The translations under genes and the position numbers were made by a program. From NCBI RefSeq assembly GCF_005490785.1, contig NZ_CP027295.1, forward strand, positions 806,001 to 870,000: a DNA stretch of 64,000 nt, given 5' to 3'. Of the stretch, positions 53,195-64,000 are shown in pieces. Position 1 is the stretch's first letter. Each line of letters starts with the position of its first letter. The notes under the pieces are model-generated. The model had not been told where the DNA came from. It searched no databases and saw nothing but the letters and a program-made list of their open reading frames with translations. This DNA comes from Brachybacterium sp. SGAir0954. GTDB lineage: Bacteria > Actinomycetota > Actinomycetes > Actinomycetales > Dermabacteraceae.

Positions 53195-54553
53195 ATGGAT
53201 CCCTCCGTCATCGTGAACATCGTCCTCGTCCTGCTGTTCGTGCTGATCGGCGGCGTGTTCGCGGGCACGGAGATGGCGATCGTGAACCTCCGCGAGTCCC
53301 AGATCAGCCAGCTCGAGGAGACGGGACCCCGCGGGGAGGCCACCGCACGCCTGGTGCGGGACCCGAACCTCTTCCTCTCCGCGGTGCAGATCGGCGTGAC
53401 GGTCGCGGGCTTCCTGAGCTCCGCCTACGGCGCCTCGACGATCGCGCCGGTGCTCACCCCGGTGCTCACGGGGCTCGGGATGAGCGACTCGGCGGCGAGC
53501 ACGACGGCGCTGATCGTCATGACGCTGCTCATCGCGTTCCTCTCCCTCGTGCTCGGTGAGCTCGCCCCGAAGCGCCTCGCGATGCAGAACGCGCTGGGCC
53601 TGACGAAGATCGTCGGCCCGCCGCTGGGGGTGTTCGGGCGGCTCATGCGGCCGGTGATCTGGCTGCTGTCCGTCTCCACGAACCTCGTGGTGCGGCTGCT
53701 GGGCGGTGACCCGCAGGCGAACCGCGAGGCGGTCTCCGCGGAGGAGATCAAGGCGATGGTGCGCGACTCCGACGCCCTCGAGGAGGCCGAGTCCCGCGTG
53801 CTGGCGGACGTCTTCGACGCCTCCGAGCGCACGGTCGTCGAGGTGATGCGGCCCCGCCACCAGGTGGACTTCCTCGAGGGGGAGCAGACGGTCGCCCAGG
53901 CGCGGGAGCTCGTGCGGGAGTCGGGCCACTCCCGCTACCCGGTGACGGGAGAGGACGTGGACGATGTGCTCGGCTTCGTGCACGTGCGGGACCTGCTGCA
54001 CGTCGAGGACCCGGAGGGCACGCGCCTGCGTTCCATCGCCCGCCCCATCGAGCACGTTCCCGGCACCGTGCAGGTGCTGCGCGCCCTGAACCGGATGCGA
54101 GCGCACGCGGACCAGATCGCGGTGGTGGTCGACGAGTACGGCGGCACCGACGGGATCGTCACGCTCGAGGACCTGCTCGAGGAGCTCGTGGGGGAGATCT
54201 ACGACGAGTTCGACACCGACCCCCGCGGCAGCGACCCCGAGCACCCGGGCCTCACCGAGGGTGAGATCGACGGGGGCCTCATCCTCCAGGAGTTCGAGGC
54301 GCTGACCGGGATCGAGCTGCCGGACACGGGCGGCTACGAGACGGTCGGCGGCTTCGTCATGGCCTCCCTCGGCCGGATCGCTGTGGAGGGCGACACGGTG
54401 CCGATCGAGGGCGGCCGGCTCGACGTGACGAAGGTCGACGAGCGGCGCGTGCAGACGGTGCGCTTCGTGCGCGAGGAGGAGCCGACGGCCGACGGCGCCG
54501 CGTCCGGCGCCGCTCCGGCCTCCGGCGGCGAGGCGGCCCCGACGCGAGGGTGA
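53195..54553 (+). CDS. CNNM/HlyC-CorC family protein (DUF21, CBS pair, CorC_HlyC)
   Basis: A 452-residue membrane protein: DUF21 transmembrane domain (1-180; GTEMAIVNLRESQISQLEE, GELAPKRLAMQNA), two CBS domains (about 205-335; VMRPRHQVDFLE, VVDEYGGTDGIVTLEDLLEELVGEIYDEFD) and a C-terminal CorC_HlyC domain (about 350-435). The family handles Mg2+/Co2+ efflux or magnesium homeostasis. The Ala/Gly-rich tail is typical of GC-rich actinomycetes. Confidence 0.92.
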   Translation: MDPSVIVNIVLVLLFVLIGGVFAGTEMAIVNLRESQISQLEETGPRGEATARLVRDPNLFLSAVQIGVTVAGFLSSAYGASTIAPVLTPVLTGLGMSDSAASTTALIVMTLLIAFLSLVLGELAPKRLAMQNALGLTKIVGPPLGVFGRLMRPVIWLLSVSTNLVVRLLGGDPQANREAVSAEEIKAMVRDSDALEEAESRVLADVFDASERTVVEVMRPRHQVDFLEGEQTVAQARELVRESGHSRYPVTGEDVDDVLGFVHVRDLLHVEDPEGTRLRSIARPIEHVPGTVQVLRALNRMRAHADQIAVVVDEYGGTDGIVTLEDLLEELVGEIYDEFDTDPRGSDPEHPGLTEGEIDGGLILQEFEALTGIELPDTGGYETVGGFVMASLGRIAVEGDTVPIEGGRLDVTKVDERRVQTVRFVREEEPTADGAASGAAPASGGEAAPTRG

Positions 54554-54582
54554 CCCTGCGCTGACCTGCGGCGGGACCTTCG

Positions 54583-54611
54583 TCGGGCGTACTCGGCGCT
54601 GTCTCGCCCGA
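54583..54611 (+). terminator. Weak hairpin after the CNNM-type gene
   Basis: TCGGGCG (54583-54589) and CGCCCGA (54605-54611) pair over 7 bp with a 15-base loop, 29 bases past the stop. Confidence 0.4.
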
Positions 54612-54622
54612 TGACCCGTTCG

Positions 54623-54638
54623 GTCACGAGAAGGTCAC
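54623..54638 (+). promoter_or_regulatory. GTCAC-N6-GTCAC element upstream of the nitrilase cluster
   Basis: GTCAC at 54623-54627 and 54634-54638 are exact direct repeats with a 6-base spacer (11-base period, one helical turn). Five-base sites separated by six are the architecture of GlnR boxes in actinomycetes (GTnAC-N6-GaAAC), with the second site matching the first-site consensus here. A nitrogen-regulator site is plausible but not proven. Confidence 0.4.
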
Positions 54639-54653
54639 GGCGGCGGCCTGATC

Positions 54654-54713
54654 TGGTGCGCAGGATCACTCGAGGCCTTTCATCGGTGCCATGAGCGCAC
54701 CAATCATTGGCAC
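54654..54713. promoter_or_regulatory. Nested inverted repeats before the nitrilase cluster
   Basis: Three overlapping dyads: TGGTGCGC (54654-54661) with GCGCACCA (54695-54702); GTGCCA (54686-54691) with TGGCAC (54708-54713); and the 11-base palindrome CCAATCATTGG (54700-54710). They overlap, so only one can form at a time as RNA; as DNA they look like operators. They lie 65 to 124 bases before GTG 54778. Confidence 0.5.
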
Positions 54714-54777
54714 ACCACGCAATGCTCGTCCGTGCGGCACGGGGGACGTCGCCGAGCCGGCCGCGGAGGCCACCGCC

Positions 54778-55917
54778 GTGGCGCCCGACGGGTGCTCGAC
54801 CGGGTCGTCGTCGGCCCCCGCGACGGACGCCTCCGCAGGGTCCTGCGGCACGGGCCGGCGCAGCGTCTCGACCCGCGTGGACCTCGCCCTGCTGGGGGTG
54901 CGCACCGCGGTCCCCGTGAGCCGCCGCGGCGGCGCGGGCCCCAGCGACGACGGCCACTTCCTCGTGGCCGGCGAGGGCGCCGCGATCCCGATGAACCCCG
55001 AGAGCCCCTACGTGCTCTCCCCGCAGGGGCGGGTCACCGTGGACGGCGCGGACCTCGGCCTCGAGGTCACCCCCGTCTCCCGCCCGCGGTTCTACGACCT
55101 CGCCACCGCGGACGGCACCTCCTACGAGAAGATCGCCAAGCTCCACGGCCGCGACGTCCTCGCGACGACCGTGGTCCAGACCTGCGTGCGCTACGACGAG
55201 GCCGACCGCTGCCGCTTCTGCGCGATCCAGGCCTCCCTCGACGCCGGCCTCACCGTCGCGGTGAAGACCCCCGCGATGCTCGCGGAGGTCGCCGAGGCCG
55301 CGGTGCGCCTGGACGGCGTGACGAACATGGTCATGACCACCGGCACCTCGAACGGCTGGGACCGCGGGGCCAAGCACCTCGCCCGCTGCGTCCGCGCGGT
55401 GAAGGAGGCCGTGCCGCAGCTCGAGATCCAGGTCCAGTGCGAGCCGCCGGCGGATCTCCGCGCGATCACCGACCTCCGCGAGGCGGGGGCGAGCTCGATC
55501 GGCATCCACGTCGAGTCGATGGACGACGAGGTGCGGCGGCGCTGGATGCCCGGCAAGTCCACCGTCACCCTCGACGAGTACCGCGCCGCCTGGCGCGAGG
55601 CCGTGCGGGTCTTCGGCTGGAACCAGGTCTCCACCTACCTGCTCGTGGGCCTCGGCGAGGACAGCGACGAGATGGTCGAGGGCGCGCGGGAGCTCATCTC
55701 GATGGGCGTCTACCCGTTCATCGTCCCCTTCCGGCCCCTCGCCGGGACCCTCGCGGCGGACGTCGACCGCATCCCCGCGCCCCATCGTGACCAGCTCCGG
55801 TACGTCACGGTGCGCGTCGCGGCGCTGCTCGCCGCCGCGGGCATGCGCGGCGCGGACCAGAAGGCCGGCTGCGCGACCTGCGGCGCCTGCAGCGTGCTGA
55901 AGACGGCGGGGGCCTGA
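54778..55917 (+). CDS. MSMEG_0568-family radical SAM protein (Nit1C cluster)
   Basis: A 379-residue radical SAM enzyme, first gene of the cluster. STRVDLALLGVRT, RRGGAGPSDDGHFLV and ATTVVQTCVRYDEADRCRFCAI are family hallmarks. The cluster cysteines are spaced C-x8-C-x2-C (136, 145, 148) rather than the canonical C-x3-C-x2-C, and a C-terminal C-x2-C-x2-C (365, 368, 371) may hold a second iron-sulfur cluster. GTG 54778 has GGAGG eight bases upstream. ATG 54691 would add a 29-residue tail encoded by the palindromic control region and has no ribosome site. The reaction is unknown. Confidence 0.87.
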   Translation: MAPDGCSTGSSSAPATDASAGSCGTGRRSVSTRVDLALLGVRTAVPVSRRGGAGPSDDGHFLVAGEGAAIPMNPESPYVLSPQGRVTVDGADLGLEVTPVSRPRFYDLATADGTSYEKIAKLHGRDVLATTVVQTCVRYDEADRCRFCAIQASLDAGLTVAVKTPAMLAEVAEAAVRLDGVTNMVMTTGTSNGWDRGAKHLARCVRAVKEAVPQLEIQVQCEPPADLRAITDLREAGASSIGIHVESMDDEVRRRWMPGKSTVTLDEYRAAWREAVRVFGWNQVSTYLLVGLGEDSDEMVEGARELISMGVYPFIVPFRPLAGTLAADVDRIPAPHRDQLRYVTVRVAALLAAAGMRGADQKAGCATCGACSVLKTAGA

Positions 55918-55918
55918 C

Positions 55919-57370
55919 ATGCTCGACGTCCCGCTCCTCTCCGGCCCACCGCGTCCCGCGCGCCGCCGCCCGGCGCCCCTGCGCATCGTGATCGCCGACC
56001 CCGCCCAGCGCGCGGAGTACCTGCGGATCCGCCGCGAGGTGTTCGTGCGCGAGCAGGGCATCTTCACGGCCGACGACCGCGACCGCATCGACGAGGACAC
56101 CCGCACCGTGGTCCTCGTGGCGCTCGGCCCGGAGGGCGAGGTGCTCGGCGGGGTGCGCGTGGCGCCCGTCCCCGAGGGCCGTGACATCGGCTGGTGGAGC
56201 GGGAGCCGCCTCGCCGTGCGGCGCGGGGCGCGGCGTGCGGGCGGGATCGGCTCCGCGCTCGTGCGGGAGGCGTGCTCGACGATCGCCGGGCTCGGCGTGC
56301 TCCGCTTCGACGCGACCGTGCAGCTCGGCGCCGCCGTGCTCTTCGACCACCTCGGCTGGCAGCGCGTGGGCACGACGACCGTGCAGGGCGTGCCCCACCT
56401 GCTCATGCAGTGGCCCATCGACCGGGTCCAGAGCCTGGTCACCGGGACCAAGAGTGCCCTGGGCGGGGTGCTCGAGCCCCTCGGCCGGGCGGTGCCCGCG
56501 GGCGCGGCCAGCGGTCCCGGCGCGGCCGTCCCGCCGAGGCCGCAGCTGGGCGGCCAGGGCTTCGTGGGCGACGACGCCGCCCCCGTCCCCGGCACGGACC
56601 TCGTCGCGGCCTGCGACGCGATCCTCCCGGCGATGGTGGACCGCGACCCCGAATGGGCCGGCTGGTGCGGCGTCCTCGTCAACGTGCACGACGTCGCCGC
56701 GATGGGGGCGGAGCCCGTCGGCCTGCTCGACGCGATCGGCGCCCGCACCGTGCGCGAGGCGCGCCGCGTCGCCGAGGGCATCGCGGAGGCCTCCCGCGCC
56801 TGGGCGGTGCCCGTGCTCGGCGGCCACACCCAGTTCGGCGTCGACCCCTCGCTCTCCGTCACCGCGATCGGCCGCGCGGCGCGGCCCGTCCCCGGGGGCG
56901 GCGGCCGCCCGGGCCACGACCTCCACCTCACCGCGGACCTCCACGGCGCCTGGCGCCCCGGGTACGAGGGGCGGCAGTGGGACTCGAGCTCGACCCGCAC
57001 CCCGGAGGCGCTCCAGGACCTCGCCGGCACCGTGCGCCGGGCCCGTCCCGCAGCCGCGAAGGACGTCTCCATGGGCGGGATCATCGGCACCGCCGGGATG
57101 CTCGCCGAAGCCTCCGGGACCGGCGCCGTGCTCGACGTCGCCGCCGTCCCCGCCCCCGGCGCCGCCGCCCACGGCGACTGGCTCACCTGCTTCCCCGGCT
57201 TCGGGATGCTCACCGCGGATCCCCGCGGGGAGAACCGCATGGCCTCCCGCTTCGCGAGGACCGCCCGCGTCGGCACCCTCGACGACGGTCCCGGCGTGCG
57301 CCTGCGCTGGCCCGACGGCGTCGAGACCACGGCCCTCGACGCGGCCGTGACCGGACTCGGCACGGCCTGA
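55919..57370 (+). CDS. Fused GNAT acetyltransferase (MSMEG_0567/Sll0786) and AIR-synthase-like (Sll0787) protein
   Basis: A 483-residue fusion. Residues 20-165 are a GNAT fold (LRIRREVFVREQGIF, VALGPEGEVLGGVRV, RRAGGIGSALVREA with the acetyl-CoA loop). Residues about 190-483 resemble PurM/AIR synthase (GDDAAPV, VLVNVHDVAAMGAEPVGLLDAI, VLGGHTQFGVDPSLSVTAIG, KDVSMGGIIGT), a fold that uses ATP to activate an amide or carboxylate. In cyanobacteria these are two genes. ATG 55919 lies one base after the radical SAM stop. Confidence 0.87.
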   Translation: MLDVPLLSGPPRPARRRPAPLRIVIADPAQRAEYLRIRREVFVREQGIFTADDRDRIDEDTRTVVLVALGPEGEVLGGVRVAPVPEGRDIGWWSGSRLAVRRGARRAGGIGSALVREACSTIAGLGVLRFDATVQLGAAVLFDHLGWQRVGTTTVQGVPHLLMQWPIDRVQSLVTGTKSALGGVLEPLGRAVPAGAASGPGAAVPPRPQLGGQGFVGDDAAPVPGTDLVAACDAILPAMVDRDPEWAGWCGVLVNVHDVAAMGAEPVGLLDAIGARTVREARRVAEGIAEASRAWAVPVLGGHTQFGVDPSLSVTAIGRAARPVPGGGGRPGHDLHLTADLHGAWRPGYEGRQWDSSSTRTPEALQDLAGTVRRARPAAAKDVSMGGIIGTAGMLAEASGTGAVLDVAAVPAPGAAAHGDWLTCFPGFGMLTADPRGENRMASRFARTARVGTLDDGPGVRLRWPDGVETTALDAAVTGLGTA

Positions 57371-57378
57371 GAAGACCT

Positions 57379-57397
57379 CCCGGGCCCCGCGCCCGGG
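57379..57397 (+). terminator. Hairpin inside the nitrilase cluster
   Basis: CCCGGGC (57379-57385) and GCCCGGG (57391-57397) form a 7-bp perfect stem with a 5-base loop, nine bases after the GNAT/AIR stop. It is the only large gap in the cluster (97 bases). It may attenuate transcription or act as an mRNA processing site. Confidence 0.45.
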
Positions 57398-57467
57398 TCG
57401 TGGGACGCCATCGGACGGCGCCCCCGCAGCCCCACCCGCACCACCCACCTCACCAGGGAGAACCATC

Positions 57468-57995
57468 ATGACCAGCGACATCGACGCCCAGATCGCCGAG
57501 AACATCCAGAAGTCCCTCGGCGAGATCCCGCACCCCTCGCTGCCCGCCGGCACCAACCTCTACGGCTCCACGAAGATCTTCCCGGACCTCCAGGCGGAGG
57601 ACGGCGAGTCCTACTTCACCCTCGTCCACGGCATCCCCCACGAGTCCTCCGTGAGCTTCGTGGCGATCCTGCAGGCCACACGCGCGCTGCGGAAGGGCTT
57701 CGAGTCCGCGATCTACTTCTACGGCCCCGGCGCCCTCGCCTGTTCCGCGACCCGCGGCTTCCCGACGACCGGCGACTCCGGGTTCCCGGGCGAGCAGAAC
57801 ATGAACGGCTCCCTGGAGACCTTCATCAAGGAGGGCGGCACGGTGTTCTGCTGCCGCTTCGGGATGGGCCTGCACGGCATGCGCGAGGAGGACCTCATCG
57901 AGGGCGTGGTCCCCGCACACCCCCTCGACGTGCAGGACGCGCTCATCCACTACGCCCGCAAGGGCGCCATCATCAACTCCACCTACAACCTCTGA
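57468..57995 (+). CDS. MSMEG_0572/Sll0783-family nitrogen starvation response protein
   Basis: A 175-residue soluble protein conserved in Nit1C clusters; DIDAQIAENIQKSLGEIPHPSLPAGTNLYG, FVAILQATRALRKGFES and GGTVFCCRFGMGLHGMREEDLIEGV are typical. In Synechocystis the homologue is strongly induced by nitrogen starvation. The molecular activity is not known. ATG 57468 has GGGAG seven bases upstream, the best ribosome site of the cluster, so this gene may be expressed more than its neighbours. Confidence 0.88.
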   Translation: MTSDIDAQIAENIQKSLGEIPHPSLPAGTNLYGSTKIFPDLQAEDGESYFTLVHGIPHESSVSFVAILQATRALRKGFESAIYFYGPGALACSATRGFPTTGDSGFPGEQNMNGSLETFIKEGGTVFCCRFGMGLHGMREEDLIEGVVPAHPLDVQDALIHYARKGAIINSTYNL

Positions 57996-58007
57996 ACGGG
58001 CGCCGCC

Positions 58008-58910
58008 ATGAGCATCACCGTCGCGTCCGTCAGCGCGAACTTCACCCGCGACCTCGAGCAGAACTACGCGCTGATCGCGCAGCTGCTCGAGCAGGCCCGC
58101 GCCGAGGGTGCCCGCCTCGTCGCCTTCCCCGAGGCCGCGCTCGGCGGCTACCTGCCCGCCCTCGGCAACCACGGGGACAGCGTGCGCACCACCCGCCGCT
58201 CGCTGCCGCCCGCGCTCCGCCTCGACGGCCCCGAGATCGCCCGGGTCCAGGAGCTCGCCGGGGACACGGTCCTCACCATCGGCTTCTGCGAGCTCGCGGA
58301 GGACGGCGAGACCCGCTACAACGCGGCCGTGTGCCTCGACGACTCGCAGATCTACTCGTCGTACCGCAAGGTCCACCAGCCGCTCGGCGAGAACATGTCC
58401 TACGCGGCGGGGGACGGCTACCAGGCCTTCGACACCCCTGTCGGCCGGCTCGGCATGCAGATCTGCTATGACAAGGCGTTCCCGGAGGCGGCGCGCATGC
58501 TCGCCCTCGACGGGGCGGAGATCGTCATCAGCATGTCGGCCTGGCCCGCGGCCCGCACCGCGACCGCGGAGAACCTCCAGGACGACCGCTGGACCTACCG
58601 CTTCAACCAGTTCGACATCGCCCGCGCCCTGGACAACCAGGTGTTCTGGATCGCGTCGAACCAGTCCGGGACCTTCGGCTCGCTGCGCTACGTGGGCAAC
58701 GCGAAGGTCGTCGACCCGGGCGGGAACGTCCTGGCCACGACCCTCCTCGGGGACGGTCTCGCGATCGCCGAGGTCGACGTCGAGGGGAAGTTCCGGGAGA
58801 TGCGCGGAGGCATGTTCCACCTGCGCGACCGCAGGCCGGACGTCTACGCGCCGGTCGTCGAGTCCGGCACGTCCCGGGCGGACGGATGGCGGGAGGTGGC
58901 CCATGCCTGA
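58008..58910 (+). CDS. Nit6803-type nitrilase
   Basis: A 300-residue carbon-nitrogen hydrolase turning a nitrile into a carboxylate and ammonia. The catalytic triad is Glu42 (AFPEAALGGY), Lys121 (YRKVHQPLGE) and Cys153 (QICYDKAFPE). It belongs to the Nit1C/Sll0784 lineage. In Pseudomonas fluorescens NCIMB 11764 the corresponding enzyme is, as I recall, needed for growth on cyanide. It follows the Sll0783-like gene by 12 bases. Confidence 0.92.
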   Translation: MSITVASVSANFTRDLEQNYALIAQLLEQARAEGARLVAFPEAALGGYLPALGNHGDSVRTTRRSLPPALRLDGPEIARVQELAGDTVLTIGFCELAEDGETRYNAAVCLDDSQIYSSYRKVHQPLGENMSYAAGDGYQAFDTPVGRLGMQICYDKAFPEAARMLALDGAEIVISMSAWPAARTATAENLQDDRWTYRFNQFDIARALDNQVFWIASNQSGTFGSLRYVGNAKVVDPGGNVLATTLLGDGLAIAEVDVEGKFREMRGGMFHLRDRRPDVYAPVVESGTSRADGWREVAHA

Positions 58911-59241
58911 GCTGCGCTTCGCCGTGCGCTGGCCGGACGGCGCCGAGTCCGAGCACTATTCCCCGAGCCTCGTGATCGCCGACCACCTCCGGGAGGGGGC
59001 GGGCTACGACCTCGAGGACTTCGTGGACCGCGCCCGCACGGCCCTGGGCGCCGCGAGCGACCGGGTCGAGGCCCGCTACGGGCACCCCTGCTCCCTCGCG
59101 CGCCGCTCCTCCCGGCAGATCGCGGAACGTGCGGCCGCCTCCCCGCCGGGGCGCGTCGAGGTGCTGAGGTTCGTCCGCCCGGCCGTGCCCTTCCCCGCCG
59201 GTGCGAGCGCCGGCCCGAGGCCCGAGGAGGCCCGCCGATGA
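58903..59241 (+). CDS. MSMEG_0570-family nitrogen starvation response protein
   Basis: A 112-residue protein: PELRFAVRWPDGAESEHYSPSLVIADHL, then helical EGAGYDLEDFVDRARTALGAASDRVEARYG with a single Cys, and a Pro/Ala/Arg-rich end. Its ATG overlaps the nitrilase stop by eight bases. Found only in Nit1C-type clusters; activity unknown. Confidence 0.85.
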   Translation: MPELRFAVRWPDGAESEHYSPSLVIADHLREGAGYDLEDFVDRARTALGAASDRVEARYGHPCSLARRSSRQIAERAAASPPGRVEVLRFVRPAVPFPAGASAGPRPEEARR

Positions 59242-60503
59242 TCCCCACCACCCTCACCCCTGGTGAGCACTACGAGGCGGTCGTCGTCGGCGGCGGGCAG
59301 GCCGGGCTCGCGCTCAGCAGGCACCTGGTCGACGCCGGCGTGCACCACGTGGTGATCGAGCGGGAGAGCGTCGCGCACGAGTGGAAGGACGGCCGCTGGG
59401 ACCAGTTCACGCTGGTCACCCCCAACTGGCACTGTCGCCTCCCCGGCTACGAGTACGAGGGCCCCGATCCCGACGGCTTCATGCGCCGCGACGAGGTCCA
59501 CGCCTGGGTGCGCGGCTTCGCGGAGTCCTTCGACGCCCCCGTCGCGGAGGGCGTGGCCGTCCGGCGCGTGAGCGCCCGCCCCGAGGGCGGGTTCACCGTC
59601 GAGACCGACGCGGGCACGATCACCGCAAGCACCGTCACCGCCGCGACCGGCGGCTACCACGAACCGGTCGTGCCCCCGTGGGCGGCCGCCCTGCCGCCGG
59701 AGCTGTTCCAGCTGCACTCCCACCGCTACCGGAGCGCGGCCCAGCTGCCGGAGGGACCGGTGCTCGTGGTGGGGACCGGGCAGTCCGGCACGCAGATCGC
59801 GGAGGACCTCCACCTCGAGGGCCGGGAGGTGCACCTGGCCGTCGGTCGCGCACCGCGCGTCGCGCGCTTCTACCGGGGCCGCGACTGCATGACCTGGCTC
59901 GCCGAGATGGGCGTCTACGACGTCCCCGTCTCCACCCGGGGCCTCGCCAAGCGCGAGTCGACCAACCATTACGTGACCGGCCGCGACGGCGGGCGTGACA
60001 TCGACCTGCGCGCCTTCGCCCGGGACGGCATGCACCTCCACGGCCGCGCCGAGGGCGTGGAGGACGGGGCGATCCGCCTGGACGACTCGCTCGCGGCGAA
60101 CCTCGACCATGCGGACTCCGTCGCCGAGTCCATCAAGGACGACATCGACGCGCACATCGCCACCCTGGGGATCGACGCGCCCGTCGAGCCCCGGTACCGG
60201 CCCGTGTGGACCCCGCCGGACGGGCCCACGCAGATCCCCCTCGAGGAGCTCTCCGCGATCGTCTGGGCGATCGGGTTCCGGGCGGACTGGTCCTGGCTCG
60301 ACCTCCCCGGGGTGCTCGATCCGACCGGGCATCCCGCTCACTCCCGCGGCGCGACGTCGGTGCCGGGGTTCCAGTTCCTGGGCCTGCCGTGGCTGCAGAC
60401 CTGGGGCTCGGGCCGCTTCCACGCGATCGCCCGGGACTCCGAGCACGTGGCCGCGACCGTCCGCGAGCACCTCGCGACGGTGGGGGAGCAGGCATGCGCG
60501 TAG
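59238..60503 (+). CDS. MSMEG_0569-family flavin-dependent oxidoreductase
   Basis: A 421-residue FAD/NAD(P)-dependent monooxygenase-like protein: FAD motif VVVGGGQAGLALSRHL, FTLVTPNWHCRLPGYEYEGPDPDGFM, second dinucleotide motif VLVVGTGQSGTQIAEDL, and the C-terminal ATSVPGFQFLGLPWLQTWGSGRF. It resembles flavin N-oxygenases, so hydroxylation of an amine or nitrogen atom is likely for the cluster product. ATGA overlap with the previous gene; a strong GAGGAGG precedes. Confidence 0.9.
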   Translation: MIPTTLTPGEHYEAVVVGGGQAGLALSRHLVDAGVHHVVIERESVAHEWKDGRWDQFTLVTPNWHCRLPGYEYEGPDPDGFMRRDEVHAWVRGFAESFDAPVAEGVAVRRVSARPEGGFTVETDAGTITASTVTAATGGYHEPVVPPWAAALPPELFQLHSHRYRSAAQLPEGPVLVVGTGQSGTQIAEDLHLEGREVHLAVGRAPRVARFYRGRDCMTWLAEMGVYDVPVSTRGLAKRESTNHYVTGRDGGRDIDLRAFARDGMHLHGRAEGVEDGAIRLDDSLAANLDHADSVAESIKDDIDAHIATLGIDAPVEPRYRPVWTPPDGPTQIPLEELSAIVWAIGFRADWSWLDLPGVLDPTGHPAHSRGATSVPGFQFLGLPWLQTWGSGRFHAIARDSEHVAATVREHLATVGEQACA

Positions 60504-61636
60504 CGCTGCTCACCTACTCGACGAAGCCCCGCGGGGGCGTGGTCCACACGCTCGCCCTCGCCGAGGCGCTCGCCGGCCGCGGGCACGAGGTCGAGGTGTG
60601 GACCCTCGCCCGCGGCGGCGACGCGGGCTTCTTCCGGGAGGTCGACCCCGCGGTGAGCGTGCGCGCCGTCCCCTTCCCCGAGGTGGAGGGGGAGAGCGTG
60701 GGGGAGCGCATCGACCGGTCGATCACGGTGCTTGGCGGGGCCTTCGACTCCGCGGCCGACGTCGTCCACGCGCAGGACTGCATCTCCGCGAACGCCGTGG
60801 GGGAGAGGGGGCGAGCGCACGTGCGCACGATCCACCACCTCGACGCGTTCACGACCGAGCGGCTGATCCGCTGCCACGACCGGGCGATCCGGGAGCCGGC
60901 AGCCCGGATCTGCGTCTCCGCCGCCGTCGCCGCGGAGGTGCGGGAGACGTACGGCCCGGTGCCGACGGTCATCCCCAACGGCGTCGCGGCGGAGCGCTTC
61001 GCCCGCGCCGCCGGGCCGGAGGGCGCCGCCGCCCGCGCCCGCTGGCAGGGCAGGCTCGGCCGCTACGTGCTCGCCCTCGGCGGGATCGAGCCCCGCAAGG
61101 GCACGATCGACCTGCTCGAGGCCTTCGCCCGGATCCGGGACCGGCATCCCGGGGTCCGGCTCGTGCTCGGCGGCGGGGAGACGCTCTTCGACTACCGCCC
61201 CTACCGGGCGCGCTTCGAGGAGCGGACCCGGGAGCTGGGGGTCGAGCCGGTGCTGCTGGGCACCCTGCCCGATGACGAGGTGCCCCCGCTCGTCGCGGGC
61301 GCGGAGGTGCTCGGCTTCGTCTCCACGAAGGAGGGGTTCGGCCTGGCCGCGCTCGAGGCGCTCGCCGCGGGCGTGCCCGTCCTCGCCCGGGACATCCCCG
61401 TGATCCGCGAGGTGTTCGGCGACGCCGTGCACCGCGCCCCGGGCACCGTGGAGGGCATCGCGAGCGGGCTCGACACGATGCTCGCGGGGGAGAGGCCCGA
61501 TCCGCGGCGGGGCCGTGCGCTCGCCGACGCCTTCACCTGGGAGCGGGCCGCGGAGCTCCACGAGCGGTTCTACCGGCACGTCCTCGAGCACGGAGGCGAT
61601 GCCGGTGCGCCGGTCGATCTCGCGGATCATCGCTGA
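60494..61636 (+). CDS. MSMEG_0565-family GT4 glycosyltransferase
   Basis: A 380-residue retaining glycosyltransferase: RVALLTYSTKPRGGVVHTLALAEALAGRGHEV, VHAQDCISANA, VIPNGVAAERF, LALGGIEPRKGTIDLLEAFARI and the E-x7-E site EGFGLAALEALAAG. It transfers a sugar from a nucleotide donor to an unknown acceptor in the cluster pathway. It overlaps the flavoprotein gene by ten bases. Confidence 0.9.
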   Translation: MRVALLTYSTKPRGGVVHTLALAEALAGRGHEVEVWTLARGGDAGFFREVDPAVSVRAVPFPEVEGESVGERIDRSITVLGGAFDSAADVVHAQDCISANAVGERGRAHVRTIHHLDAFTTERLIRCHDRAIREPAARICVSAAVAAEVRETYGPVPTVIPNGVAAERFARAAGPEGAAARARWQGRLGRYVLALGGIEPRKGTIDLLEAFARIRDRHPGVRLVLGGGETLFDYRPYRARFEERTRELGVEPVLLGTLPDDEVPPLVAGAEVLGFVSTKEGFGLAALEALAAGVPVLARDIPVIREVFGDAVHRAPGTVEGIASGLDTMLAGERPDPRRGRALADAFTWERAAELHERFYRHVLEHGGDAGAPVDLADHR

Positions 61637-63134
61637 GCGCGGCGCCCGGGACCCGTCGGAGCCGGTCGTCCTCGACGCCCGCGGCGTGCTCACCGCGGGC
61701 GAGCTCGCGGCGGGCGCCCGGTCGCTCGCCCGGCGCCTGCGCCGTGCGGGGGTGCGCGTCGACGACCACGTCGAGGTCTCCCTCGGCAACGACCGCGACA
61801 TGGTCATCGCCTGCTGCGCCGTGTGGGAGGCGGGCGCGACGCCGCTGCCGCTCGCCCCGGGGCTCGTGCACGCGGAGCGGGAGCGGATCGAGGACATTGC
61901 CCGCCCCACCGCCTCGATCGGTGCGCTCCCGGCGCGGCCGGACGTCGTGCATCTGCAGGTCGCGGGGACGGCCGACGGGGCCGACGACACCGATCGCAGT
62001 CCGGACCTCGACCCCGATCTGGCCGCCTCCTGCTGGAAGGCGATGACGACCTCCGGATCGACGGGCCGGCCCAAGATCGTCCGGGCGAGCGCCCCGGCGC
62101 TGCTCGACCCGGAGCGGGCGGTCGCCCCGTACCTGCCCCGTGACCAGGTGCAGCTCGTCGCCGGGCCGCTCACCCACCCGGCGCCCTTCACCTATGCCTT
62201 CCGCGGTCTGCTCACCGGTCACCGGCTCGTGCTGCTGCCGCGCTTCACCCCGGAGGCCTGGCTCGACGCCGTCGAGGAGCACCGCGTCACCTGGGCGATG
62301 GTGGTGCCGACGATGCTCCACCGCCTCCTGCGACTGCCGCCCTCCCGGCGCTCGCCCGCGAGGCTCGCGAGCCTGCGCACCCTGCTGCATATCGGCGCGC
62401 CCTGCGCGGTGCCGCTCAAGCGGGAGGTCATCGACTGGCTGGGCCCCGAGCGGGTCCTCGAGGTGTACGCGGGCAGCGAGTCCAACGGGATCGTCATGAT
62501 CGACGGCGCGGACTGGCTCGCGCATCCCGGGAGCGTGGGCAGGCCGCTGCCGGGCACCTCCGCGCGGATCGTCGACGCCGAGGGCCGCGCGCTGCCGCCC
62601 GGCCGCACGGGTCTCGTGCAGATGCGCCGCGAGGGCGCCCCCGCCTCGCACTACCTCGGCGCCCCCTCCCGTCGCGACGCCGAGGGCTGGGACACCCTGG
62701 GGGACCTGGGCCGCCTGGACGCCGCGGGCTACCTCCACCTCACGGACCGCGAGGACGACATGATCGACCGCGGCGGGGAGCTCATCGCCCCGGCCGCGAT
62801 CGAGGCGGAGCTCGAACAGCACCCCGAGGTGCGCGGCGCCCTCGTGCTCGGACTGCCGGACGCGGAGTGGGGGCACCGGATCGCGGCCGTGCTCGACGTC
62901 CCCGGGGTCGGGCCCGACGGGGAGGACGGGGACGCCGCGGAGGCCGTCGGCCGGCGGATCCTCGCCGGGGTGCGGCCCCGCCTCGGGCATCGCACCCCGC
63001 AGGAGGTGCTCGTCGTCGACCGCCTGCTGCGGGACGACGCCGGCAAGGCCCGCCGCCGGGCGTGGGTCACCGCCTTCGAGGAGGGCGGGCTCAGATCCCG
63101 CCGGCCGCCCGCGCCGCCGCCGAGACCTTCATGA
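61605..63134 (+). CDS. Adenylate-forming (acyl-CoA synthetase-like) ligase
   Basis: A 509-residue ANL-superfamily ligase that activates a carboxylate as acyl-AMP, possibly the acid released by the nitrilase. P-loop TTSGSTGRPKIV, motif YAGSESNGIVM, WDTLGDLGRLDAAGYLHLTDREDDMI and the C-terminal Lys region DDAGKARRRAW are present. GTG 61605 has GGAGG eight bases upstream; ATG 61599 is the near alternative. It overlaps the glycosyltransferase gene, and its 3' end overlaps the opposite-strand MarR gene by 44 bases. Confidence 0.87.
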   Translation: MRRSISRIIAERGARDPSEPVVLDARGVLTAGELAAGARSLARRLRRAGVRVDDHVEVSLGNDRDMVIACCAVWEAGATPLPLAPGLVHAERERIEDIARPTASIGALPARPDVVHLQVAGTADGADDTDRSPDLDPDLAASCWKAMTTSGSTGRPKIVRASAPALLDPERAVAPYLPRDQVQLVAGPLTHPAPFTYAFRGLLTGHRLVLLPRFTPEAWLDAVEEHRVTWAMVVPTMLHRLLRLPPSRRSPARLASLRTLLHIGAPCAVPLKREVIDWLGPERVLEVYAGSESNGIVMIDGADWLAHPGSVGRPLPGTSARIVDAEGRALPPGRTGLVQMRREGAPASHYLGAPSRRDAEGWDTLGDLGRLDAAGYLHLTDREDDMIDRGGELIAPAAIEAELEQHPEVRGALVLGLPDAEWGHRIAAVLDVPGVGPDGEDGDAAEAVGRRILAGVRPRLGHRTPQEVLVVDRLLRDDAGKARRRAWVTAFEEGGLRSRRPPAPPPRPS

Positions 63135-63546
63135 GACTGCGCTGCAGGGCCTGCAGCTCCTCCATGTCCATGCCGAGCCGCTCGAGCATCTGACCGGGGA
63201 CGGCCTCCGCCTCATGGCGCAGCGCGGCCCCGGCGGGGGTGAGCGCGATCGCGAGGACGCGCTCGTCCTTCTCGTCGCGCCGACGCTCCACGTATCCGAT
63301 CGCCTCGAGCCGCTTCACGAGCGGGGAGACCGTGCCCGGGTCCAGCTGGAGCCGTGCGCTGAGGGCCTTCACGGAGAGCGGGGCGTCCTCCCAGAGGGCG
63401 AGCATCACGAGGTACTGCGGATGCGTCAGCCCCAGCGGCTCGAGGACCGGGCGGTAGGCGGCGACGATGCTCCGCGAGGTGAGGGTCACGGCGAAGCAGA
63501 ACTGGGTCTCCAGCGCCAGAGGGTCCACGGGACCGGCTTCGCTCAC
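63091..63546 (-). CDS. MarR-family regulator, OhrR-like
   Basis: A 151-residue winged-helix repressor. QFCFAVTLTSRSIVAAYRPVLEPLGLTHPQYLVMLALWE is very close to OhrR proteins, including Cys17, the residue that senses organic hydroperoxides. The DNA-binding wing is TVSPLVKRLEAIGYVERRRDEKDER. GTG 63546 has AAGGAG five bases upstream. It is divergent from the pyruvate oxidase gene, which may be its target; no ohr gene is in view. Confidence 0.88.
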   Translation of the reverse strand: MSEAGPVDPLALETQFCFAVTLTSRSIVAAYRPVLEPLGLTHPQYLVMLALWEDAPLSVKALSARLQLDPGTVSPLVKRLEAIGYVERRRDEKDERVLAIALTPAGAALRHEAEAVPGQMLERLGMDMEELQALQRSLMKVSAAARAAGGI

Positions 63547-63573
63547 GTCCACTCCTTCACAGCAGTCCGGACG

Positions 63574-63579
63574 AGCATA
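63574..63579 (-). promoter_or_regulatory. -10 element of the MarR gene
   Basis: TATGCT on the minus strand, 27 bases before GTG 63546. Confidence 0.45.
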
Positions 63580-63659
63580 CCGATCCCGGCGGGCCCCGCG
63601 TGCCGGGGTCCCGTCGGCCCTCCCGGACCGAACCTGTGCGGCGCCCGTGCGCCGAGGAC

Positions 63660-63665
63660 TAGGCT
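63660..63665 (+). promoter_or_regulatory. -10 element of the pyruvate oxidase gene
   Basis: TAGGCT, 58 bases before ATG 63724, leaving a leader with an AGGAG ribosome site. Confidence 0.4.
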
Positions 63666-63723
63666 CGATCCCATCGCGGCCTGCAGGACGCGGGCCGCTC
63701 CGCCGTCGATCCCAGGAGAAACC

Positions 63724-64000
63724 ATGGCCCGCACCAGTCTTGCCCGCCTCCTCGTCACCCAGCTGCGCGACCTCGGCGTCGAGCGCATCTACGGGGTGGT
63801 CGGCGACTCGCTGAACCCCGTCGTCGACGCGATCCGCACCACCGAGGGCATCGAGTGGGTGCACGTGCGCAACGAGGAGGCCGCCGCCTTCGCCGCCGGC
63901 GCCGAGGCCCGCCTGACCGGGAAGCTCGCCGTGTGCGCCGGCTCGTGCGGCCCCGGCAACACGCACCTCGTCCAGGGGCTGTTCGACGCGCACCGCGACG
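63724..64000 (+). CDS. poxB: Pyruvate oxidase/dehydrogenase (thiamine diphosphate), N-terminal part
   Basis: The first 92 residues, cut by the window edge. LVTQLRDLGVERIYGVVGDSLNPVVDAI and the catalytic Glu in VHVRNEEAAAFAAGAEARLTGKLAVCAGSCGPGNTHLVQGL are typical of PoxB-type enzymes, which oxidise pyruvate to acetate and CO2 with electrons passed to quinone. AGGAG lies five bases before ATG 63724. Confidence 0.85.
   Translation, partial: MARTSLARLLVTQLRDLGVERIYGVVGDSLNPVVDAIRTTEGIEWVHVRNEEAAAFAAGAEARLTGKLAVCAGSCGPGNTHLVQGLFDAHRD

Follow-up and report, generated by a model that had tools for sequence, protein, structure and literature searches.

A nitrilase-free, gpr-type nitrogen-starvation operon in Brachybacterium and the possible exchange of its nitrogen-releasing module

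Which enzyme would release nitrogen in a relative of the nitrilase cluster Nit1C that has no nitrilase? The question is raised by a 64,000-nucleotide stretch of the Brachybacterium sp. SGAir0954 genome (contig NZ_CP027295.1; the whole stretch is hereafter the window), in which eight co-directional genes on the + strand, at 54691-63134, form an operon-like array. The original prediction, made from the letters alone, took this array for a complete Nit1C cluster with a Nit6803-type nitrilase. Among the nitrogen-starvation operons related to Nit1C, its gene families place the locus instead with the actinobacterial gpr form (MSMEG_0565-0572), as a variant that bears a ligase and lacks a second hydrolase, here called B.

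Gene content and the hydrolase of the operon

Genes were assigned by profile scans against the curated NCBIfam cut-offs, plus Pfam (Table 1). All eight reading frames are open, and six families (seven models) score above their cut-offs. This bears out the identities first proposed for the radical SAM, Sll0783-like, MSMEG_0570, MSMEG_0569 and MSMEG_0565 proteins, as well as the fusion of a GNAT and an AIR-synthase-like domain in one polypeptide (TIGR04045 and TIGR04050), the linked ANL ligase (PF00501), the location of all eight genes on one strand, and the reading of the whole as a known conserved set matching NCBIfam families; the nitrogen-starvation context is named in the NCBIfam models and in the M. 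smegmatis papers. That almost every junction overlaps was too strong a statement: four of the seven do (by 8, 4, 10 and 38 base pairs, bp), and the remaining three are gaps of 1, 97 and 12 bp. Confidence in the gene anatomy of the operon is high.

The nitrilase is another matter. Hydrolase A, the carbon-nitrogen (C-N) hydrolase of the operon, reaches 42 bits against the Nit6803 model TIGR04048 (cut-off 502.6), and the whole genome (3.41 Mb, one contig) holds zero matches to this model above cut-off. In profile searches against the Nit1C families one protein, the name-giving hydrolase, falls outside, an outcome that the original prediction, speaking of several proteins, had itself named as telling against it. 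A complete Nit1C cluster is rejected because the nitrilase model fails, and B, present in the relatives, is missing too, both at the locus and elsewhere in the genome. With no Nit6803-type nitrilase, the assimilation of cyanide or nitriles through an enzyme of the NitC type is not transferable to this locus. The wider suggestion of the original prediction, a pathway that makes or consumes a nitrile, may still apply.

The best model for hydrolase A is that of AguB (N-carbamoylputrescine amidase, TIGR03381), below cut-off at 107.7 of 410 bits; on profile evidence A is a relative of AguB, not a member. Among solved chains it comes closest to C-N hydrolases from archaea (PH0642, E 4e-21) and to N-carbamoylputrescine amidohydrolase (E 3e-20), with plant NIT4 (5e-15) and cyanide dihydratases (1e-10) further down the list. 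Alignment with 77 B and four Nit6803 proteins shows E42, K121 and C153 kept in 80/80 A sequences in a C-Y-D-K context, while the Nit6803 proteins have C-W-E-H; mean identity of A to the latter is 23.5%. Judged by this context, A is amidase-type rather than a Nit6803 nitrilase. The window A is 85% identical to that of locus L034, and its nearest relatives in the hydrolase tree come from Microbacterium, Janibacter and Puerhibacterium. In M. smegmatis, MSMEG_0571 has been proposed to read through UGA as a selenoprotein into MSMEG_0569 (PMC6039565); in the window A and MSMEG_0570 overlap by 8 bp and match two separate families, one each, so that ordinary overlapping genes suffice there (58008-60503).

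Table 1. Features of the operon and its upstream region in the window
Feature	Position	Strand	Evidence and remarks
GlnR-like box GTCAC-N6-GTCAC	54623..54638	+	pattern match
Radical SAM, MSMEG_0568 family	54691..55917	+	TIGR04043 509 bits (cut-off 303.7); start uncertain
GNAT + AIR-synthase-like (PurM/ThiL-like) fusion, MSMEG_0567 type	55919..57370	+	TIGR04045 107 bits (cut-off 68); TIGR04050 427 bits (cut-off 312)
MSMEG_0572/Sll0783 protein, DsrE/YchN fold	57468..57995	+	TIGR04044 241.5 bits (cut-off 110)
Amidase-type C-N hydrolase A	58008..58910	+	PF00795; E42-K121-C153 triad, CYDK motif
MSMEG_0570 protein	58903..59241	+	TIGR04042 103 bits (cut-off 80)
MSMEG_0569 flavin-dependent oxidoreductase	59238..60503	+	TIGR04046 583.6 bits (cut-off 498)
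MSMEG_0565 family GT4 glycosyltransferase	60494..61636	+	TIGR04047 449 bits (cut-off 260)
ANL (AMP-forming) ligase	61599..63134	+	PF00501 E 1e-51

The window contains the gpr families MSMEG_0565, 0567, 0568, 0569, 0570 and 0572 (TIGR04047, TIGR04050 with TIGR04045, TIGR04043, TIGR04046, TIGR04042 and TIGR04044), and a C-N hydrolase A adjoining MSMEG_0572; the subfamily of this hydrolase is found in 75 of 81 loci from actinobacteria, the window itself counted. A second hydrolase at the MSMEG_0566 position is not found in the window. Compared with the gpr cluster of Mycolicibacterium smegmatis (PMC6039565), with MSMEG proteins matched by position, the window has the same families, the GNAT-AIR fusion, a presumed GlnR-like control and a C-N hydrolase directly after MSMEG_0572, but it lacks B, has the ANL ligase and follows another gene order. 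Common to the window and to Nit1C (PMC1199592; Synechocystis PCC 6714 locus L154, Paraburkholderia locus L156) are ORF1 (TIGR04044), radical SAM (TIGR04043), GNAT (TIGR04045), ORF6 (TIGR04042), the flavoprotein (TIGR04046) and AIR. However, the subfamily-1 Nit6803 nitrilase (TIGR04048), which is defining there, is not found in the window, where GNAT and AIR are moreover fused: the AIR part is of the MSMEG_0567 type TIGR04050, the sll0787-type model TIGR04049 staying below cut-off (191 of 321 bits).

For the actinobacterial survey, named genomes were searched with MSMEG_0572 as query; of 404 loci the 80 best were taken, all close to the MSMEG_0572 of the window. With the window the set numbers 81, and several loci are contig ends. 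MSMEG_0572 is present in all 81, the radical SAM and GNAT-AIR proteins in 76 each, A in 75, the glycosyltransferase in 73, B in 71, MSMEG_0569 in 70, MSMEG_0570 in 68 and the ligase in 18; the Nit6803 nitrilase occurs in 0/81. With R for radical SAM, G for GNAT-AIR, D for MSMEG_0572, z for MSMEG_0570, F for MSMEG_0569, T for glycosyltransferase and L for ligase, the window reads R-G-D-A-z-F-T-L, whereas the locus numbers MSMEG_0565-0572 give D-A-z-F-R-G-B-T, found also, detection gaps aside, in L091, L093 and L134. The nearest relatives, six loci from Microbacterium, Cellulomonas and Puerhibacterium (L034, L043, L045, L049, L053, L055), share the order R-G-D-A-z-F-(B)-T-L; B lies between F and T in all six, and the window is without it.

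Some gene calls need qualification. The radical SAM gene may start at ATG 54691, at GTG 54778 as first proposed, or further in, the TIGR04043 match beginning at residue 64 of the 54691 reading. The glycosyltransferase start is ATG 60494, inside the 3' end of MSMEG_0569; its family scan was made from 60500, two residues shorter. For the ANL ligase no NCBIfam equivalog exceeded its cut-off among the 25 families listed. The ligase was also considered as a Nit1C-wide companion, which was rejected: the AMP-binding protein after MSMEG_0569 on an Acetobacter plasmid (L158) is acetyl-CoA-synthetase-like, with ACAS_N, and has no match to the window ligase at E 1e-6, so that the likeness is not evidence. 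An Rfam search of 50-64 kb of the window gave no match. Very long antisense open reading frames in this window of 74% guanine-cytosine (GC) content (54334-57453 on the - strand, and others) look like GC-bias artefacts, not genes.

A second hydrolase predicted to be a pseudoenzyme

Hydrolase B is about 50% identical to the A of the same locus and is encoded mostly just before the glycosyltransferase. Among the 73 glycosyltransferase-bearing actinobacterial loci, window included, 71 have it; only the window and L088 do not, and L088 sits on a separate branch from the window in the hydrolase tree. Since the window glycosyltransferase overlaps MSMEG_0569 by 10 bp, there is no space for B between them, and with the B of L038 as query the window genome returned as best matches only A itself (47%) and then a 29% protein.

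The peculiar feature of B is its active site. Across the 77 B sequences, Asp stands at the nucleophile position 76 times and Cys once, and the catalytic Glu position has Asp (74), Tyr (2) or Glu (1), with Lys121 kept in 77/77. The one sequence among them with both Glu and Cys comes from the deep locus L142, where it is the single hydrolase. In the hydrolase tree B forms one side of a branch (91/91) with this catalytic single copy at its base, the rooting being unsettled because the outgroup row from L160 is the longest stop-free stretch of that locus, probably not the hydrolase (branch 9.8); a copy from L133 called A by BLAST falls on the B side. Over 72 loci mean identity is 70.5% for B versus 66.9% for A, and ratios of nonsynonymous to synonymous substitution rates (dN/dS) in nine pairs range over 0.045-0.21 for B and 0.02-0.22 for A. 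A conservation comparable to that of A, together with low dN/dS, argues that B is maintained rather than decaying. B is therefore predicted, from its residues and their conservation, to be a conserved pseudoenzyme under purifying selection, in which Asp may make the protein inert or give it a new activity.

Equating genes by position alone, B would be MSMEG_0566 and A MSMEG_0571. PMC4222082 gives MSMEG_0566 as an annotated 'aliphatic amidase'; the protein at that position is here suggested to be a pseudoenzyme. A Rhodococcus qingshengii plasmid record annotates both A and B as carbon-nitrogen hydrolase family proteins. In three Williamsia loci (L081, L086, L105) A is kept apart from B. No paper joining pseudoenzyme with carbon-nitrogen hydrolase was found in licensed PMC full text, with subscription journals and non-PMC preprints outside the scope of that search.

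Other putative nitrogen-releasing modules beside a common core

Beyond the close relatives of the window, a phylum-wide set was assembled from 16 longer stretches, besides the window, out of 19 TIGR04044-bearing genomes (ten hydrolase-free, five hydrolase-type, one too short to tell; G161 and G290 left out), plus six plasmid stretches. In the 11 loci classed as hydrolase-free (L137-L141, L143, L145-L148, L155), A, B, Nit6803, MSMEG_0569 and MSMEG_0570 were not found in the stretch at E 1e-6. Ten of these 11 have AllF, AllG or both (oxamate carbamoyltransferase), the exception L139 being a 4.4-kb contig; queries for AllF, AllG, AllH, carbamate kinase and nitrile hydratase were taken from L138 and L143, which belong to the 11 and so match themselves. 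Carbamate kinase (7/11), a CoA-disulfide-reductase-like protein (9/11) and an Amidohydro_2 protein (7/11) accompany them, next to the radical SAM protein (9/11) and the glycosyltransferase (8/11). Pfam recognises AllG, AllH, the FdrA CoA-ligase domain and the amino-acid-kinase domain; NCBIfam matches stay below cut-off, at 419 of 433 bits for FdrA/AllF and at 131 of 358 for carbamate kinase, a partial protein. The core adjoins AllFGH, carbamate kinase, the CoA-disulfide-reductase-like protein and Amidohydro_2 at L138:4716-6811 and L143:14408-18444, as well as in L155 and further loci.

By contrast, AllF, AllG, AllH, carbamate kinase, nitrile hydratase and the CoA-disulfide-reductase-like protein were found in 0/80 of the hydrolase-type loci. 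With All genes in 10/11 versus 0/80, and a nitrilase or A(+B) elsewhere, the nitrogen-releasing module looks interchangeable. The two forms are linked by the Amidohydro_2 protein, which adjoins MSMEG_0572 in 12/80 hydrolase-type loci. Nit6803 is annotated in four nitrilase-type plasmid loci, and L143 is a single case in which genes for nitrile hydratase alpha, beta and accessory proteins, all above cut-offs, lie near the core. Acyl-CoA chemistry is also seen near the core in plasmid clusters of the hydrolase-free or nitrilase type, where a Pnap_2097-family protein occurs in L155 and L156, with a methylmalonyl-CoA mutase in L156.

In E. coli, AllFGH converts oxalurate into oxamate and carbamoyl phosphate (PMC11326118). 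The alternative modules may represent alternative ways to draw nitrogen from a carbamoyl-, amide- or nitrile-type core product. A tentative generalisation, slightly less likely than not, is that the core (MSMEG_0572, radical SAM, GNAT, AIR) constitutes a general nitrogen-starvation pathway in which terminal ammonia release is left to unrelated, interchangeable modules, namely a nitrilase, an active amidase with a conserved Cys-to-Asp pseudoenzyme that the window has lost, or AllFGH with carbamate kinase. A search for Nit1C together with carbamate kinase, of the same scope as above, found no paper.

Core chemistry, control and competing explanations

Several core residues are conserved. The radical SAM motif C165-X8-C174-X2-C177 is present in 95/95 rows and a C-terminal CX2CX2C (C394/C397/C400) in 94/95; the family also scores with the LipS2 and LipA models, and in LipS2 the auxiliary-cluster ligands include C-terminal C276 and C279 (PMC9585515). 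Cys129 of MSMEG_0572 is invariant in 103/103 rows, and a Foldseek search with the MSMEG_0572 model gave YchN (1jx7, E 3e-6) as best match, then DsrEFH and TusBCD; the model being weak (predicted local distance difference test, pLDDT, 67), this DsrE match rests on part of the chain, though it is consistent with the literature. The Cys motifs and the DsrE-like fold suggest that the core carries out sulfur or redox chemistry, without amounting to proof. The AlphaFold model of MSMEG_0570 (pLDDT 90) had no fold match in the PDB (best E 0.94), and the protein perhaps has an unsampled fold; the window copy departs from others at H26, here A (H in 20/22 others), and at S65, here L (S in 22/22 others). 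A second MSMEG_0569-like flavoprotein is encoded elsewhere in the window genome (G000:C1:153162-154349, L149; 355.7 bits, below cut-off) among a LysR regulator, an MFS transporter and a C69 peptidase, and is found also in five congeners (G005, G011, G012, G023, G034).

The GlnR-like box lies 52 bp upstream of ATG 54691 and is so called for the AC-n9-AC spacing of the GlnR consensus. Of 74 upstream stretches of 250 bp (with starts for ten R-first relatives partly set by hand), 13 carry the strict pattern G[AT]NAC-N6-G[AT]NAC, versus a mean of 1.6 (maximum 4) over 50 mononucleotide shuffles; among random stretches the share is 1.6%. The loose pattern gives 22/74 versus a shuffled mean of 9.7 (maximum 17) and 15.7% of random stretches, so that only the strict one separates. 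Because a looser pattern has 182 sites in the genome versus 63 in a reversed control, a single box is weak evidence; I infer GlnR-like control for the window operon from the sequence pattern.

As to origin, within the genus TIGR04044 is found in one of 38 genomes and TIGR04046 above cut-off likewise in 1/38. The interval between the CorC and thiamine diphosphate (ThDP)-enzyme genes is about 9 kb in the window (54553 to 63724), filled by the operon and a MarR-family gene, whereas in G017 and G010 the two flanking genes are about 100 bp apart. Six of the 28 CorC-bearing congeners were checked: two have this empty site, one lacks a ThDP match in the stretch, and three (G033, G021, G025) hold other DNA, which marks the site as variable in the genus. 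The flanks were compared by protein searches, since a six-frame comparison gave pure noise in DNA this rich in GC. The best explanation is that the window species acquired the operon between the CorC and ThDP-enzyme genes. The MarR-family gene (63091-63543) lies on the opposite strand, facing the ligase; the genome encodes another copy of it (68%), and at E 1e-40 four congeners have relatives.

How might the operon work? Under nitrogen limitation, the DsrE-like protein, the LipS2-related radical SAM protein, the GNAT, the ATP-using AIR-like domain and the NAD(P)H flavoprotein would build or modify a small compound of the amide or ureide type. Hydrolase A would then cut a C-N bond via a Cys153 thioester intermediate, freeing ammonia, while tailoring or activation of the carbon part would fall to the glycosyltransferase and ANL ligase. 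The step that releases nitrogen would be swappable, performed by a nitrilase in cyanobacteria and proteobacteria, by A (+B) in actinobacteria and by AllFGH with carbamate kinase in deeper lineages. What the gene content suggests is that nitrogen-starved cells free ammonia from an amide, a ureide or a nitrile; confidence in this chemistry is modest. On the whole, a B-less gpr variant, acquired and carrying a swappable nitrogen-releasing module, is a reasonably probable explanation, against which several points weigh. A scores below the cut-off of every named hydrolase model, and its amidase rather than nitrilase chemistry is read from the CYDK context and the neighbours. The GC content of the operon (75.1%) is like that of the rest of the window (74.3%), and thus gives no sign of foreign origin. 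Mutant phenotypes in the literature concern redox, not direct nitrogen release, and the loss of B, together with the odd MSMEG_0570 residues (H26A, S65L), could mean that the operon is altered or decaying.

There are also rival accounts. Were the core a redox module, a small sulfur- or sugar-containing metabolite would keep NADPH high and guard against peroxide, with nitrogen release secondary. An M. smegmatis cluster mutant has lower peroxide resistance and, under nitrogen starvation, lower NADPH/NADP, induction of the cluster being GlnR-dependent (PMC6039565), and in a nitrogen-starved Synechocystis sll0783 mutant NADPH/NADP fails to rise and the ratio is lower (PMC3901256); the invariant Cys in the DsrE/TusBCD-like fold of MSMEG_0572, the kinship of the radical SAM protein to the sulfur-inserting LipS2/LipA with its C-terminal Cys triplet and LipS2 precedent, and a weak match of the glycosyltransferase to BshA and MshA agree with it. 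Yet it leaves unexplained why a C-N hydrolase, a nitrilase or an AllFGH/carbamate-kinase set travels with the core; the glycosyltransferase is absent from the fetched Synechocystis locus, and sulfur insertion is an analogy only. This account is unlikely, if the strongest of the rivals. That the operon is a partly decayed import, left non-functional in the window species once A had lost its partner, is improbable: B is kept under purifying selection in nearly all relatives and the window MSMEG_0570 departs at otherwise conserved positions, but all eight frames are open, cut-offs are exceeded for six families (seven models), the triad of A is intact, the separately branching L088 is likewise without B, and the Williamsia loci keep A away from B.

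Equally improbable is cyanide or nitrile assimilation as proposed for Nit1C in Pseudomonas, the hydrolase splitting a cyanohydrin or other nitrile into acid and ammonia. For seven of the eight window proteins, relatives by family or neighbours do occur in loci of the nitrilase type, and nitrile hydratase stands near the core in the related locus L143; against this, neither operon nor genome has a Nit6803-family nitrilase, and A, with CYDK rather than CWE, has only about 24% mean identity to the four Nit6803 proteins.

To sum up, since 2005 the function of this widespread cluster has been in question, and it has so far been read via the nitrilase. With the nitrilase absent from the examined actinobacterial loci and other modules in its place, the question becomes which carbamoyl-, amide- or nitrile-type compound the core makes. 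The natural B-less operon of the window and its B-bearing relatives form a test pair for operon function. If the exchange of modules holds true, carbamate kinase would recover ATP in the AllFGH-type form, the core product would bear a carbamoyl/ureide-type (or corresponding nitrile) group, and 'nitrile' would not be the essence of the cluster.

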